DNA of 41,680 bases, taken from assembly GCA_020049045.1 (NCBI GenBank), contig JAIFLN010000143.1, positions 1-41,680 of the forward strand, written 5' to 3'. Source of the DNA: Spirochaetota bacterium. Its GTDB lineage: Bacteria > Spirochaetota > Spirochaetia > JABEVK01. A program made the position numbers and the translations under genes. Shown piece by piece: positions 3,916 through 12,608 of this stretch; positions within the stretch are counted from its first letter, which is position 1; the number at the start of each line of letters is the position of its first letter. Below the pieces are notes generated by a model that did not search any database, was not told the DNA's origin, and saw only the letters and a program-made list of their open reading frames with translations.

Positions 3916-6132
3916 ATGAGAATATCGATTTCAAAAAAAATCGGGGTCGTCCTCGGCCTCGCTTGTCTGGCTGCGTTGTCGTTCAGTTATGTCGCTGTGA
4001 AAAACAGCCTGGACGACAACCAGCAGCTGGCCCAATTGTCCAAGGTGGATGACGCCCGGTTTCTGTTGGTCGACCTGGAGCTGCAGACCGCCAATATGTG
4101 GCAGTTCATCACCGACGCCGCGTTGACCCAAAATGAGCAGCCCATCACCACCGGAGGAGCCCAAAAAGCCTTTGATCAGGGTATGGCTGACTTAACGGCC
4201 CTGAGGGAGATCCAGGTGCTGGAAAACCAGTCCCTCTTGATGGGCCCTTTGGAGTCCAAACTTCAAGACCTATGGATTTCAGGCCGGACCATGGTGACTG
4301 CCTATAATAAGTCCAAAGCCGAGGGCGACAAGGCCATGTTGGCCTTCGACACAGCAGGGGAAGATTTGCTTCAAGCCTTCCGCGATTTTCGAGAACCATT
4401 GATCGCACAGCGTGAGGCGATTTTGGCCGGGTTTCAAAACAATCTACAGCAGGATCTTTGGTTCTTCGGCCTGACCGGTGGGGCCTCCGTGGCGCTCTTA
4501 CTGGTGTTGTGGTTCTTCTTGTCGCGATCTTTGTCTGCCCCCATCCGTTCTGCTTCGGGGGCTCTGAAAACGCTGGCCGATAGTCAGGGCGACCTGACCG
4601 TCCGCTTGATGCCCAGGGGCAACGATGAAACCGCCGACCTTGTGAAAAGTGTGAATTCCTTTTTGAGTAAAATCCAAGGCATTCTACTGGCCATCGACGA
4701 AACCATCCATAAGAACCAGAATCTGGCCACCAGCCTGAACCAGAGTGCCCGCGACTCAGCCGGCTCGGTTTCCGACCTCGGCCAGAGGGTCACCACCCTG
4801 AAAAAGGGCATTGGCTCTCTTGACCTCGATATTTCGGGAGCTTCTGCCGCCATTGAACAAATTCTAGCCAACATCGCTTCGCTGGCCAAGCAGATTGAAG
4901 GACAAGACCAGCAGGTTTCGCGCACGGGAGCAGCCATCGAAGAAATGATGGCCTCGGTTTCCGGGGTGTCAGAACTCGCCGAAGCGAAAGTCGGCGCCGT
5001 GAAGAACCTTGTCACGCTGACCCGTCAGGGCGGTGAGCGGGTGCAAAAGACGGCCGTTGTCATCAGCAAAGTTGCTCAAAATGCACAAGGGATGCTGGCG
5101 TTGATCGACCTGATCAACGACATTTCCGACCGAACCAACCTTCTGGCTATGAACGCCAGCATTGAGGCCGCCCACGCCGGTGTGGCGGGGCGGGGTTTTG
5201 CGGTCGTCGCCAATGAGATTCGCAAACTCGCCTTCGATACCGGGGCTAACGCCCAGAAGATCGGCCAGTCTCTGAAAGAGACCGGTGACCAGATCCAGCA
5301 GGCACAAATCGACAGCCAAAGCGTGCAGCAGGCCTTTGATCTGCTGGAGCGCGAAGTGGGAGAGTTTGCCCAGGCCATGCAGGAAGTCTCGGCTTCGATG
5401 GGGGCTTTGGGAGAGGCCGGTGGCGAAATTCTCGATGCGACTTCCCACCTGATTCAAAGCAGTCAGCTGATCAGTGCCTCGTCGCAGGAGATGACCTATG
5501 GCGCTCATGAGATTCTGACGGCCGTCCAGCATATTAAAGAAGTTTCAAAAGAGTCCCTGACAGAAGTTGACCGGGTGTCTACGGTGACAACAGAACTGAA
5601 CCGCGTGGCGCTGTGGGTTTCGGCCTTCGGCAATCAGAACAACTATAACAACAGCATTCTGACAGCCGAGGTAGAGCGGTTCCGCCTGGGTGCCGACCCC
5701 ACCAAGCGCTCGGAGGTCGTCACCATGGGCATCGACTGGAACGACATTCTGTCGGTGGGCATTGCGGAAATGGATGAGGAACATAAAGAACTGTTCCGGC
5801 GGATCAACGCCTTGCTGGTGGGGCTTCTGGGACCCGAAGGCGGGGCGAACATCTCAAAACTGGTCACCGCGATTATCGAGTACACGGTTTATCATTTCAA
5901 CGACGAGCAGGACCTGATGCGTCGCGAAAAGTACCCCAGGCTGGAACAGCACATTGTGCTTCACACGGCGTTCCTCAAGGAATTCGGTGAGATACAAACC
6001 CTGTTGGCCGAGGGACATTTCTCGGCCAACCTTTTGATCCGCATTCAAGATAAGGTGGTCAACTGGCTGCTCGAGCACATCGGCAAGGTGGACCGCGACT
6101 ACAGCGAGTTTATCCTTGGAAAGAAAGGTTGA
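3916..6132 (+). CDS. Methyl-accepting chemotaxis protein with C-terminal bacteriohemerythrin domain
   Basis: Two TM segments, HAMP-like region, MCP signalling tip ([35 protein letters not shown]), C-terminal hemerythrin motifs ([34 protein letters not shown]). Confidence 0.93.
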
Positions 6133-6133
6133 T

Positions 6134-6652
6134 ATGGCAACGTTCACCGACCAAGACTGGCAGCAAATTCTGAGTTATCTGACCGAGGTTATTGGAACTG
6201 AGGCCCAAAAGTACGCCGCCAACCCGGCGGCACGACTGATGGCCTGCATTTCGTATCTATCCAACAGCGAAGACCCCGACCGATTTGCGGTATCCAACCT
6301 TCTGACTTTCCACGCGGCCACCAAGGCCCGCAAGCTCTTTGACCACAGACCCTCAGACGATCAGGATCTCTACCGAAGGCTGGCCGCCGTCCATGTGGGC
6401 AACCATTCCGACCCGCATACCGTCGACTACGGAATGACGTTGCTGGCGATGATCAGCCTCAACGACCACGAGCACGACCTGGCCGACGATGTCCGTACAG
6501 GCAAGTACAATCCGCTGGCCCAAGGCGGCTGGGACGCTAAGGCCCTTCGATTGGAGCTAGAGTCAGACCTGGCTAAAAGCCCGTCGCTGAAGCAAACTTA
6601 CAACGCGGCAGTAGGAATGGAAGTCGCATTGCAGGCCTGGTGGGAGGACTGA
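6134..6652 (+). CDS. Conserved hypothetical protein in the rnf/MCP gene string
   Basis: ORF starting 1 nt after the MCP stop and ending 3 nt before the downstream kinase; no recognised domain. Confidence 0.75.
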   Translation: MATFTDQDWQQILSYLTEVIGTEAQKYAANPAARLMACISYLSNSEDPDRFAVSNLLTFHAATKARKLFDHRPSDDQDLYRRLAAVHVGNHSDPHTVDYGMTLLAMISLNDHEHDLADDVRTGKYNPLAQGGWDAKALRLELESDLAKSPSLKQTYNAAVGMEVALQAWWED

Positions 6653-6655
6653 GAA

Positions 6656-7909
6656 ATGACAAAGTTCCAAACTCAGCAGAAGGTCGGAATTCTTTTTGTC
6701 GGCCTTTGCTGGGCCGTAGCCGTGGTGAACCTCATGAGTTTCCTGACACGGCCGGTGCCGGTACCTCTGCTGATGTATCTCACAAATATCGGCGTTTTGT
6801 TCGGTATGGGTGCCTTGGGTCTGTTGATCGTCTTCGTCAATAGACCCGTGGTACAGATCTTCTTGATCTTCCTGTTTCTCCTACCAGCGGGCCCGGCCAT
6901 CGCCTTTTCCGATCTTTCTTTCATCGGTTTGTGGATGATGATCATTGCGGTAACGATGATCATCAAGTTCCAGCCCCATCCTCGGAAGCAGCGGTGGTTT
7001 CTTTTGGCCGCCATCGTGTACTTTCTGCCCTGGCTGGTGTTGCTGGTACTGGGGCAACCGCCCTCTGACCGGCTGACCCTCTTCCGTTTTCTCGACTATC
7101 TCTTTTTCCTCATCGTCGGTGTGCTCACCCTCTACGTTCTATTTGAAGAGGAGATCCGCAAGCTGACGAGAACCAACCATGAGAATGAAGCGGCAATCTC
7201 CGAACGTGACGCCAAAATCCTCAAGTTGGAACCGCTTTCCGAGCTGGGCCAGCGGGTGGCACACGTCACCCACAGTTTTAAAAACAACCTCAGCCAGCTC
7301 CACGCCATTGCCACCATCCTTGAAACCACCCATGACGTGGAAGCCGGCGTGAAGCTTATCCGCGAGGTCAGCAACTCGCTCGATGACCGCATTGAAAACA
7401 TTTTGCTGGTCAGCCAGGCTGGTCAGAACCCCACGATGGAGACCTTCGATGTAGCCCGCGTTCTCGAAGGCATGAAGTTCATCTATTTGTCGGAACATTC
7501 CTTTCAGACAAAAGTCAGGAGCGAGATGAACCTGGAAGGCTCGTTGATGATCACCGCCGTGCGCTGGGACTTTATTCTGATGATTGAAAACCTCGTCAAG
7601 AATGCCTACGAGGCCATTTCGACCCGCAGCGAGCGAGGCAACCTCAAAATCACCCTGCTGGGGGGCCTGCTGACCATTGCCAACGACGGCGGTGCCATGG
7701 AACGGTGCAAGGAATGTACAGGGTACTGCCTCAACTGTCCGCACTACGGTTTTCCCGGAAAAACCTCCAAAAAGCACGGTTCGGGTCTGGGGCTGACCCA
7801 GGTGTTTGACACCTGCCGCAAATACGGCTGGTCGCTGCGTATCCGCACCGATGAACCTTGGACCAGCTTCCAAATCCTTCTCCCTGATCCCCGGGGTCAG
7901 AACTCATGA
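6656..7909 (+). CDS. Membrane histidine kinase with a Cys4 motif in the ATP-lid region
   Basis: About 6 TM helices, phosphoacceptor-like VTHSFKNNL, N box ENLVKNAYEA, G1 IANDGGAM, G2 KHGSGLGL; CKECTGYCLNC between G1 and G2. Confidence 0.87.
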   Translation: MTKFQTQQKVGILFVGLCWAVAVVNLMSFLTRPVPVPLLMYLTNIGVLFGMGALGLLIVFVNRPVVQIFLIFLFLLPAGPAIAFSDLSFIGLWMMIIAVTMIIKFQPHPRKQRWFLLAAIVYFLPWLVLLVLGQPPSDRLTLFRFLDYLFFLIVGVLTLYVLFEEEIRKLTRTNHENEAAISERDAKILKLEPLSELGQRVAHVTHSFKNNLSQLHAIATILETTHDVEAGVKLIREVSNSLDDRIENILLVSQAGQNPTMETFDVARVLEGMKFIYLSEHSFQTKVRSEMNLEGSLMITAVRWDFILMIENLVKNAYEAISTRSERGNLKITLLGGLLTIANDGGAMERCKECTGYCLNCPHYGFPGKTSKKHGSGLGLTQVFDTCRKYGWSLRIRTDEPWTSFQILLPDPRGQNS

Positions 7910-8862
7910 TCGAGGATCCCCGGCATCCCGGCTTGGACCCGAAAGAAACCATCCGGCTGAAACAGATTGCCCTGATCGCCTGGATCGCCATCGGAGCCAA
8001 TGCGGCGCTGGCCGTTTCGAAAATTCTAGGCGGCTGGATTGCCGGCTCCCTGGCGGTGGTGGGTGACGGCATCGACAGTTTTGGCGATATTCTCAGCTCG
8101 TCCCTCACCTTGATCACCGCGCTGATCATCAGCCGCCCGCCCGACCCGAGATTCCCTTGGGGTCGCCAGCGGGCTGATACCGTAGCCACGAAGTTTCTAG
8201 CCTTCGTGGTGTTTTTTTTCGGTGCCCAGCTTTCCTACTCGTCCTTTTTGAGCATTCTGAACCAGGAGCCCAGGGAAATACCCGGCCTGCTGGCCTTTGT
8301 AGTTACCATTATTTCCATTGTGGTGAAGACGGGTCTTTCGTTTTTGCTCCAGTGGAGCGGTGAGCGTTCCAACTCAGGCATGATGATTGCCAATGCCAAA
8401 AACATGCGCAGCGACGTCGTGATTTCTGTAGTCGTGCTTCTTGGCTTGATTTTCAGCCAAGTGCTCAATATCGGCATCATCGACCTGATCTTTGCCTTTT
8501 TGGTGGGCATTTGGATCATGCGCACCGGTGTGGAAATCTTTATGGAAACCAACACCGAGCTGATGGACGGTATGGACGACAAGACCGCCTACTTTCAGGT
8601 CTTCGACGCGGTAGCCGCCGTACCCGGTGCGCACAACCCGCACAGAACCCGTATCCGCAAATTTGCCAACTACTACATCATCGATCTGGACATCGAGGTG
8701 GATTCTTCGCTGACAGTGGCGCAGGCGCATATCATCAGCCAGAAGGTCGAGGAAGCCATCAAACGCCGCCTGGACAATGTCTACGACATCATGGTCCACA
8801 TTGAACCCGAAGGGAACGTCGAGCATGCGGAGAAGTTCGGGCTGAAACGGGAAAGCTTGTAG
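7906..8862 (+). CDS. Cation diffusion facilitator (CDF) family transporter
   Basis: CDF motifs (GSLAVVGDGIDSFGDILSS, TM topology, C-terminal metal-binding-like domain DIMVHIEP). Confidence 0.9.
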   Translation: MIEDPRHPGLDPKETIRLKQIALIAWIAIGANAALAVSKILGGWIAGSLAVVGDGIDSFGDILSSSLTLITALIISRPPDPRFPWGRQRADTVATKFLAFVVFFFGAQLSYSSFLSILNQEPREIPGLLAFVVTIISIVVKTGLSFLLQWSGERSNSGMMIANAKNMRSDVVISVVVLLGLIFSQVLNIGIIDLIFAFLVGIWIMRTGVEIFMETNTELMDGMDDKTAYFQVFDAVAAVPGAHNPHRTRIRKFANYYIIDLDIEVDSSLTVAQAHIISQKVEEAIKRRLDNVYDIMVHIEPEGNVEHAEKFGLKRESL

Positions 8863-9869: not shown

Positions 9870-10250
9870 ATGCGTATCCTGATTGTGGACGATTCTCGCA
9901 TCATGCGGAATATAGTTAAAAATACTCTGAAGTCTCTCCGCTATCCAGAGGATGTTTTTCTGGAAGCTCCCGACGGCCAGGTAGCCTGGCAGATTCTTGA
10001 GGCTCAAGAAATCACCCTGTTGCTGGTGGATTGGAACATGCCGACCCTCAACGGTCTCGAGCTGGTCAAGAAACTTCGGGCCAACGCCAAGCACCAGAAA
10101 CTGCCCATCATTATGATCACCTCCGAGGCGGCCAAGTACAACGTGATCGAAGCGGTGAAAGCCGGAGTCAGCGACTACCTGGTGAAACCGGTGACAGAGA
10201 AGGGTCTCGAGGAGAAAATCCGGCGGGTCCTCGACAGGAGGCCGTCATGA
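9870..10250 (+). CDS. CheY-like response regulator receiver protein (module A)
   Basis: ILIVDDS, phosphoacceptor LLVDWNMP, ITSEA, KPV motifs. Confidence 0.93.
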   Translation: MRILIVDDSRIMRNIVKNTLKSLRYPEDVFLEAPDGQVAWQILEAQEITLLLVDWNMPTLNGLELVKKLRANAKHQKLPIIMITSEAAKYNVIEAVKAGVSDYLVKPVTEKGLEEKIRRVLDRRPS

Positions 10251-10720
10251 ACATCCGTTACATCACCCCTTTCATCGAGGCCGTCGAAGGAGCCTTCGAT
10301 CAGATGTTTCAGCTGCAGCCCCAAGCTCTGACACCGTATCTGGTCAAAAAAGAAGAAATACTCGACTGGGACATCAGCGGCATCATCGGTATTGCCGGCG
10401 AAGCCCGAGGCCTGGTTGTGCTGAGCTTCCCTGCCGACCTGGCGCAAGAACTGACCGCAGTGCTGACCGGGCAAGCCAAAGATACCATGGATGAGGATGT
10501 GACCGATACGGTGGGAGAGCTGGTGAACATTATTGCAGGGAACGCCAAAAAAGGTCTTGAGGAGTTCCGGCTGCTGATTTCGCTGCCATCGATTGTTCAG
10601 GGGCACCATCACCAGGTGACCTGGCCGTCGGGACCCGTTCCCATCATCACCATTCCCTTTTCGACCTCACGAGGGCACTTCAGCCTGTCGGTGGGACTCG
10701 AAAACATCATTACCACCTGA
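10247..10720 (+). CDS. CheX-like phosphatase (module A)
   Basis: CheX fold signature GELVNIIAGNAKK (ExxN); ATGA overlap with the CheY-like gene. Confidence 0.85.
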   Translation: MNIRYITPFIEAVEGAFDQMFQLQPQALTPYLVKKEEILDWDISGIIGIAGEARGLVVLSFPADLAQELTAVLTGQAKDTMDEDVTDTVGELVNIIAGNAKKGLEEFRLLISLPSIVQGHHHQVTWPSGPVPIITIPFSTSRGHFSLSVGLENIITT

Positions 10721-10733
10721 TCGGGAGACCTTC

Positions 10734-12608
10734 ATGCGAAAGTTCTTTAAAAACGTTTTGTACTCCGGCATCCAGGACCGATTGGCTCCCGAAGATCAGG
10801 TCAAGCTGCTGTTCATCAATTCGATCATTTTCTTCGGTTTACTCGTGCTCACGTTTTTTGGTGTACGTGACCTGAGCCACGGTGACATGGTTCTCGGTGG
10901 AGTTACCCTCGCCATCTCTTCGGTGGTACTTGCCTTGTTCTTTTTGATTCGGGTCACCAAGACCATTCAGATAGGCGCGTGGTTTCTACCCTTCCTGATG
11001 TTTGGATTCTTCACCTTTCTAACCGCCAGCGGAGGCGCCAACTCAACGGTGGTTTTATGGATACTAGTCTATCCCATTTTTGTCGTCTTTCTCATTGGTT
11101 CTTTTTGGGGCAGTGTGTTTGCCGCTGTCTTTCTTGCCGTACAAGCGCTTTTACTGTTTGTCCCGGGCCTGAGCCCGGCCGCAGCTGTCGAACTGGAATT
11201 CAAGACCCGGCTTATCGGGGTGTATGCCATTGTATTCACCTTTTCGTTGGCCTTTGAGATTATCCGTTTGCAGGCGCAAAAGGAGCTCACCCGCACGGCT
11301 TCTGAACTGGCCGGAGCCAAGGTCCAAACCGATGGCATTCTCAATACGGTGACGGAGGGCATTTTCCTTTTGAACCCCGACCTTACCATCGGTGATCAGC
11401 ATTCGCATTCGCTGAAGGCCATGGTTGGCAAGGACGACCTGACCGGCCGCTCGTTTTTGGAAGAACTACGGGGCCGCATCAGTGAAAAGGATTATGCCGC
11501 AGCGAAAGACTACCTCGATATGTTTTTTCTCCCCGACCCCCCCTGGCATTTGATGGAAGAGATCAATCCCCTTTCTGAGACGACCATCACCGGTCCAGAC
11601 GGTCTGCCGCACCATATGACGTTCTCGTTCCGCAGTGTGGAACTATCCACCGGACGGAGGGTTCTGGGCACGGTGCGTGACGTCACCGAATCGTTTGAGT
11701 TGAACCGAAAACTTAAGGAAGAAGAAGACCGGTCAGCCCGCCAGATGAAACACCTGTTTCAGATCATTCACGTGAAACCAGAGTTGCTGCTGCAATTCCT
11801 CCAAGACGCCGACCAAGAAATCACAGCGGTCAACCGTCATTTGAAAGATCAGAAAACCGACCCATCACAACTGATCGAGGAACTGTTCCAGGCCGTCCAT
11901 GCCGTCAAAGGAAACGCCGCGCTGGTAGGGCTTTCAGCCTTTGCCGCGAGGGTCCACGCTCTCGAAAACATGGTTGCCGCGTTCCGGGAAAAGAAGCCGC
12001 TTTGGCAGGATTTCCTCGAGATGACCGTTCAGCTCTCGCTCATACAAGCCGAACTGACCGAAATCCGCGAGCTGCTGGGCCGCATGTCAGCCTTCCAACG
12101 CGGAATCGAAGCCTCTTCCGCCGACCAAGACTTGCTTCTGCTGGCTCTTGAAAAAGCCATCGATCAGCTGGGAACCGATACCAAGCTGGCTGTGGACCTC
12201 GATATCAGCGAATTTCAACCACATTTGATACCCGAAAAGCATCGAAAACTCATCAAGGATGTTCTGGTTCAACTCGTCCGCAACAGCTATGCCCATGGGC
12301 TGGAGCACCCTTCGGAGCGAAAAACGGCTGGTAAGCCGGGACGGCCCCGCATCCGGGTCGCGACAACACCGGCAGGTCCGCTTCTCAAACTGGCGTACTG
12401 GGACGACGGACGCGGCATTGCTCCGGAAGCACTGAGCCGCGTCTTCGAAGCGGGATTCTCCACGGCCGCTTCGGTAGGGCTTCACGCTGGTCGAGGCGTG
12501 GGACTCAGTCTGGTGAAACAGCGGGTGGAAACAGCGGGTGGGCGCTTGAGTTTGAGATCGGTACAGGGAAAAGGGGTTGCCTTTGACATCACCCTTCCCT
12601 TGTCCTAA
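10734..12608 (+). CDS. Membrane CheA-like histidine kinase (TM-PAS-Hpt-HATPase, no CheW domain)
   Basis: N-terminal TM bundle; PAS-like region; Hpt motif HAVKGNAALVGL; CheA-like HATPase (LVRNSYAHGLEHPSER, DDGRGI, GRGVGLSLV); ends directly after HATPase. Confidence 0.87.
   Translation: MRKFFKNVLYSGIQDRLAPEDQVKLLFINSIIFFGLLVLTFFGVRDLSHGDMVLGGVTLAISSVVLALFFLIRVTKTIQIGAWFLPFLMFGFFTFLTASGGANSTVVLWILVYPIFVVFLIGSFWGSVFAAVFLAVQALLLFVPGLSPAAAVELEFKTRLIGVYAIVFTFSLAFEIIRLQAQKELTRTASELAGAKVQTDGILNTVTEGIFLLNPDLTIGDQHSHSLKAMVGKDDLTGRSFLEELRGRISEKDYAAAKDYLDMFFLPDPPWHLMEEINPLSETTITGPDGLPHHMTFSFRSVELSTGRRVLGTVRDVTESFELNRKLKEEEDRSARQMKHLFQIIHVKPELLLQFLQDADQEITAVNRHLKDQKTDPSQLIEELFQAVHAVKGNAALVGLSAFAARVHALENMVAAFREKKPLWQDFLEMTVQLSLIQAELTEIRELLGRMSAFQRGIEASSADQDLLLLALEKAIDQLGTDTKLAVDLDISEFQPHLIPEKHRKLIKDVLVQLVRNSYAHGLEHPSERKTAGKPGRPRIRVATTPAGPLLKLAYWDDGRGIAPEALSRVFEAGFSTAASVGLHAGRGVGLSLVKQRVETAGGRLSLRSVQGKGVAFDITLPLS

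Follow-up and report, generated by a model that had tools for sequence, protein, structure and literature searches.

A conserved four-cysteine motif in the ATP lid of Spirochaetota histidine kinases, a candidate metal-binding site

Results

The kinase gene and its catalytic boxes

The window, i.e. the whole stretch of 41,680 nucleotides that was analysed, carries a histidine kinase gene at 6656..7909 in what is apparently one unit, with the order rnf, MCP/hemerythrin, cl5, kinase and CDF and with gaps of 1–9 bases or overlaps between the genes. The features of this region are as follows.

3916..6132, + strand: MCP with a C-terminal bacteriohemerythrin domain, 9 bases after rnfB and 1 base before cl5
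6134..6652, + strand: upstream partner cl5, 172 aa, 3 bases before the kinase ATG
6656..7909, + strand: membrane histidine kinase with a Cys4 ATP lid (P0001, 417 aa), from the ORF, Pfam, a membrane-domain HMM and AF2
7271..7273, + strand: His206, phospho-acceptor (VTHSFKN), which lines up with the H box of every family member
7601..7603, + strand: Asn316, N box (ENLVKNAYEAI), invariant in the family alignments
7682..7696, + strand: degenerate G1 box N343-D-G345-G-A347 (canonical DxGxG), from family comparison
7706..7738, + strand: Cys4 lid module CKECTGYCLNC with C351, C354, C358 and C361, invariant in the family alignments
7757..7795, + strand: GKTSKKHGSGLGL, the lid Lys372 and the G2 box, conserved as GK[ST][ST]KxxGSGLG
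7906..8862, + strand: CDF cation transporter (Cation_efflux and ZT_dimer), with an ATGA overlap with the kinase stop

The kinase consists of an N-terminal multi-helix membrane domain (residues ~1–180), a DHp and a CA domain. The membrane-domain HMM scored 34.7 bits, HATPase_c_5 of Pfam scored 23.7 bits, above its cut-off of 22, and HATPase_c scored 25.6 bits in hmmscan, just under its cut-off of 26.4, and 28.8 bits in the genome search. The DHp-CA fold and the profile match identify the protein as a histidine kinase of the GHKL ATPase type, and its H, N and G2 boxes (H206, N316 and GSGLGL) are all intact.

An initial annotation of this DNA had placed four cysteines between the G1 and G2 boxes. 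The translation confirmed this observation, with codons at 7706-7708 (Cys351), 7715-7717 (Cys354), 7727-7729 (Cys358) and 7736-7738 (Cys361). The module is bracketed by IANDGGAM (341-348) and GSGLGL (375-380), with GKTSKK preceding G2, and occupies the ATP-lid position as had been proposed, in the same place as the IFEPYFTTK-type lids of seven ordinary kinases. The ordinary lids share the G1–G2 position and the same TTK and G2 loop, but they have no cysteines and form a lid helix where the knuckle would be. The module takes up about 20 residues before TTK as compared to 13 in ordinary lids. The motif had been described as inserted in the lid; the module in fact takes the place of the lid helix and is longer than it, and so differs from a simple insertion.

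The same annotation had read IANDGGAM as the G1 box and had overlooked that it is degenerate, N343-x-G345-x-A347 instead of DxGxG. The Asp of G1 normally contacts adenine in GHKL proteins. All 22 other Cys4 members have the canonical box, and the window kinase alone among the 23 lacks its Asp and second Gly; its branch in the tree is long (2.73). As the G1 box is degenerate, the protein's own kinase activity is doubtful and it is poorly suited to illustrate a switchable kinase. Its sequence would be compatible with weak binding of ATP, with a role chiefly as a phosphatase or with a pseudokinase.

Conservation of the four cysteines

A scan of genome contigs with the single window protein gave no relatives. 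When 60 relatives were searched with the whole protein, remote homologues over the full length turned up in other families of the class, and the best of these full-length matches, at ~20–30% identity, all carried the four cysteines in the same place, so that the motif is not due to chance. Eight sequences with this level of identity to the window protein, when aligned, showed no variation at the four cysteines, in the N box, in GK..K or at the glycines of G2. Across 395 genomes of the class, a profile search clearly set apart an upper group of scores (about 143 bits and more), with the motif in nearly all members.

The lid motif of the relatives is C-x2-C-x(3-6)-C-x2-C-x2-[F/Y]-xx-GK[ST][ST]K, and the consensus of the family is D-x-G-x-G-[IL]-x-x-C-x2-C-x(3-6)-C-x2-C-x2-[FY]-x-x-G-[KR]-[ST]-[ST]-K-x-x-G-[ST]-G. 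The window kinase has the defining CxxCx(3-6)CxxC between G1 and GKTTK. The search for relatives with cysteines in this position, which the initial annotation had called for, was productive: 23 of the 31 family members compared keep all four, and the taxonomic families of Spirochaetota that they represent number more than ten, with Exilispira among the sources. Relatives devoid of the cysteines had been named as the finding that would speak against the proposal, and these also exist, as the remaining eight members, in two clades. The CxxC pairs are separated by a loop of variable length (3 to 6 residues), and the spacing is C-x4-C-x3-C-x2-C in one clade and C-x3-C-x4-C-x2-C in one member. In clade f26 the position of the second Cys shifts inside a constant stretch of 13 residues (CLTCNSNDQCIDC vs CLEKDCTGDCSRC). 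Judged from these alignments, the four cysteines define a deep kinase family. Its lid sequence can thus mark out a group that the profile libraries used do not separate; none of them names the family.

Distribution and evolution

An exact degenerate DNA motif scan, with all codons degenerate and for the x4 spacing only, was performed over 85,462 species and returned ten stretches, nine of which were Spirochaetota kinases. The tenth (Methylococcaceae, L069) contained in-frame stop codons and was rejected as a chance match. Searching the phylum showed that Exilispira-type genomes, which are outside the class, also carry the Cys4 lid. On the x4 spacing, the family appears to be restricted to Spirochaetota; the other spacings were scanned inside the phylum only. 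A MAG contig labelled Brachyspira murdochii (L067) has an Exilispira-type operon and its kinase groups with Exilispira; the label looks wrong.

The tree, made of 23 Cys4, eight Cys-less and seven ordinary kinases, needs three cysteine changes, namely one gain and two losses when the ordinary kinases serve as outgroup. All four cysteines vanish together in both Cys-less clades. Clade f43 lost the module and kept DxGxG; the paralogues of clade f34 have a broken G1 box as well, and share the cl5 partner with the window. The fold and the ATP pocket can therefore do without the site, since two clades lack it, one of them with an intact DxGxG.

Structure models of the lid

The AlphaFold model suggested by the initial annotation was made with AF2 for residues 185–417 of the window kinase, and showed a normal DHp-CA fold (mean pLDDT 76, pTM 0.74), with Foldseek matches to YycG/WalK, HK853 and SrrB (6paj). 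The cysteines are in the lid, where the model is weak: this is a low-confidence loop with a pLDDT of about 56–67, in which a three-residue helical turn begins at each CxxC. A second AF2 model, of an Exilispira member, was weaker still in the lid (pLDDT 43–47). Searching the PDB with the lid peptide gave no match.

Input domains and gene neighbourhoods

The Cys4 lid is combined with several N-termini: the 6TM type as in the window, other membrane domains, CHASE2 (L073), or none. A 240-aa Cys4 kinase (G041, L034:4666-6498) has neither a membrane domain nor an N-terminal sensor domain and has a GAF-GGDEF gene 37 bases behind it, and a 333-aa Cys4 kinase (G150, L087) has no membrane or recognised sensor domain. 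Two such members fit a lid that senses.

The initial annotation had used the rnf, hemerythrin and CDF genes as an argument for a redox or metal input. This argument was not supported, as the arrangement is not conserved: in three near relatives from the same family, those with readable downstream sequence, no hemerythrin-MCP, cl5, kinase or CDF follows rnfB. We regard the Rnf linkage as a local arrangement, because rnfB occurs in these three without such genes behind it, and it was rejected as functional evidence, the rnf operon ending at rnfB in the relatives checked. Other Cys4 family members also have different neighbours. After the CDF gene, positions 9870-12608 of the window encode a CheY-like receiver, a CheX phosphatase and a further kinase, which might form an unlinked set of partners.

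Metal pumps adjoin the Cys4 kinase in two lineages, as the overlapping CDF gene in the window and as a P1B-ATPase gene that follows the kinase gene of G102 and G068, with the Cu-type motifs CPC, YN and MxxSS. This recurrent adjacency is a weaker link than the neighbourhood argument first made. In the Cu-type P1B-ATPase loci (L081:6661-10831 and L082:6346-10354) a formate-THF ligase-like gene precedes the kinase. GGDEF genes lie beside the Cys4 kinase in four lineages. A fusion of a GNAT acetyltransferase with HATPase_c adjoins the kinase in the f26 clade (L088:4990-6978), and in two f15 genera a protein of ~130 aa with no Pfam match overlaps the 3' end of the kinase gene (L031:2989-3381 and L099:6979-7368).

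The better-conserved neighbour is cl5. Its family (~180 aa, weak likeness to DUF5685) is present in 62 of the 395 genomes of the class, and in most loci examined (L102-L120) the homologues are encoded directly beside membrane sensors, which end in a LuxR DNA-binding domain, HisKA_2, a Cys-less HPK or a Cys4 HPK. Together, cl5 and the membrane sensor look like an undescribed two-gene sensory module.

Discussion

We lean, by a modest measure, towards the explanation that the gene at 6656..7909 encodes a membrane-anchored kinase with a lid rebuilt around a Cys4 knuckle that binds one metal, with Zn(II) as the best guess. The four cysteines would bind a single metal ion, most likely Zn(II), which would staple the lid into a defined shape next to the conserved GKTTK loop and would thereby set how ATP is held. 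In the window protein, input would probably come via the membrane domain and via cl5, the partner whose gene immediately precedes that of the kinase. While the position, spacing pattern, conservation and losses of the cysteines are direct observations, metal binding and the identity of the metal are inferred from the sequence.

The initial annotation had left open a metal site, an Fe-S site or redox disulfides. The motif looks like one metal site, given that the loop is short and variable, the second Cys slides and the four are lost jointly. Zinc is favoured, since the linker is short and variable and the turns are knuckle-like, and is more likely than Fe-S to occupy such a site. Two CxxC thiol-disulfide pairs, acting as a metal-free redox switch, would suit the two CxxC pairs of most members, and a CA-domain disulfide is known from SrrB (PMC8534201, PMC8774646). 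However, the first pair also occurs as C-x4-C and C-x3-C, which makes gating by CxxC disulfides less likely, and a sliding second Cys is expected of metal ligands and not of a CxxC redox pair. The joint loss of all four cysteines in the Cys-less clades, together with the shift of the second Cys in f26, is more in keeping with a single metal site than with two disulfides, and we give the disulfide switch little credence.

The data are accounted for just as well by a Zn site with a purely structural role as by gating. That the motif is indifferent to the attached sensor, and that a clade with an intact ATP site lacks it, supports a static staple; the members without recognised sensor domains, and the metal or redox genes that adjoin some loci, support a switch. 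In its strong form, the switch would make the lid a true sensor, in which a labile Fe-S cluster or an exchangeable metal opens or locks the lid and so gates ATP binding directly. This form could draw on the retention of the motif in the 240-aa and 333-aa kinases, on redox genes beside some members (flavodoxin and an FAD/NAD oxidoreductase in L085, Rnf and hemerythrin in the window), on a spacing like that of ferredoxin-type motifs and on the precedent of redox-sensitive CA-domain cysteines in SrrB (PMC8534201, PMC8774646). Against it, the neighbour genes are unconserved, a variable loop with four ligands within 11–14 residues better suits zinc knuckles, and a single stimulus leaves unexplained the many different sensors that accompany the motif. 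We consider it rather unlikely. In the wider form, that the ATP lid itself is the sensor and is opened or locked according to whether the Cys4 site is occupied or oxidised, even in G041, which has no recognised sensor domain, the proposal is still doubtful, if somewhat less so.

Two further explanations concern partners and decay. The knuckle might be a docking face for a response regulator, a diguanylate cyclase, the cl5 partner or another protein, as the kinase has a GGDEF gene next to it in G041 (37 bases), G263 (10 bases), G217 and the f26 clade despite only 12–49 GGDEF matches in those genomes; but cl5 also accompanies sensors without the Cys4 lid, and the window and most other loci have no GGDEF neighbour, so docking seems improbable. 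The window protein could also be a decaying pseudokinase with the motif as a relic in its genome. Its NxGxA box and long branch, and the broken G1 boxes of the f34 relatives, which lack the cysteines and share its cl5 partner, point in this direction, whereas the intact H, N and G2 boxes and cysteines, and an open frame tightly packed against the genes on either side, make this very improbable. Overall, the interpretation first given to the motif is partly supported.

GHKL lids are mobile loops and lid closure limits catalysis. If real, the Cys4 lid would provide a direct way to test how the order of the lid controls autophosphorylation, and those members that have no other input domain may turn out to carry a sensor as part of the catalytic domain itself. 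Direct control of Cys4 kinases by metal or redox state would then be possible; if this is true, spirochaetes would read such a state inside the catalytic domain.

No description of a Cys4 ATP lid was found in the open-access literature, to which the search was confined (subscription papers were outside its scope). A likeness is offered by the LID of Gram-positive adenylate kinases, where a Zn(Cys)4 site steadies a mobile lid over ATP and Cys-less relatives cope without it; fold and enzyme are unrelated, and this is an analogy only. Among histidine kinases, SrrB of Staphylococcus aureus has a redox disulfide in the CA domain that tunes kinase activity (PMC8534201, PMC8774646). It resembles the Cys4 family in having cysteines in the catalytic ATP-binding domain, a likeness by description, but it has a single disulfide of two cysteines that is not present in all staphylococci, and no Cys4 lid module has been described for it. 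In NreB, AirS and Hik2/CSK a cysteine-bound Fe-S cluster controls the kinase (PMC8774646, PMC13421787). There the cluster is in an N-terminal sensor or GAF domain and not in the ATP lid, and the window kinase, with its cysteines at 351–361 in the CA domain, falls outside this N-terminal cluster type. Zinc binding regulates WalK (PMC8534201) through a site in the PAS domain, whereas the candidate site of the Cys4 family is in the lid.
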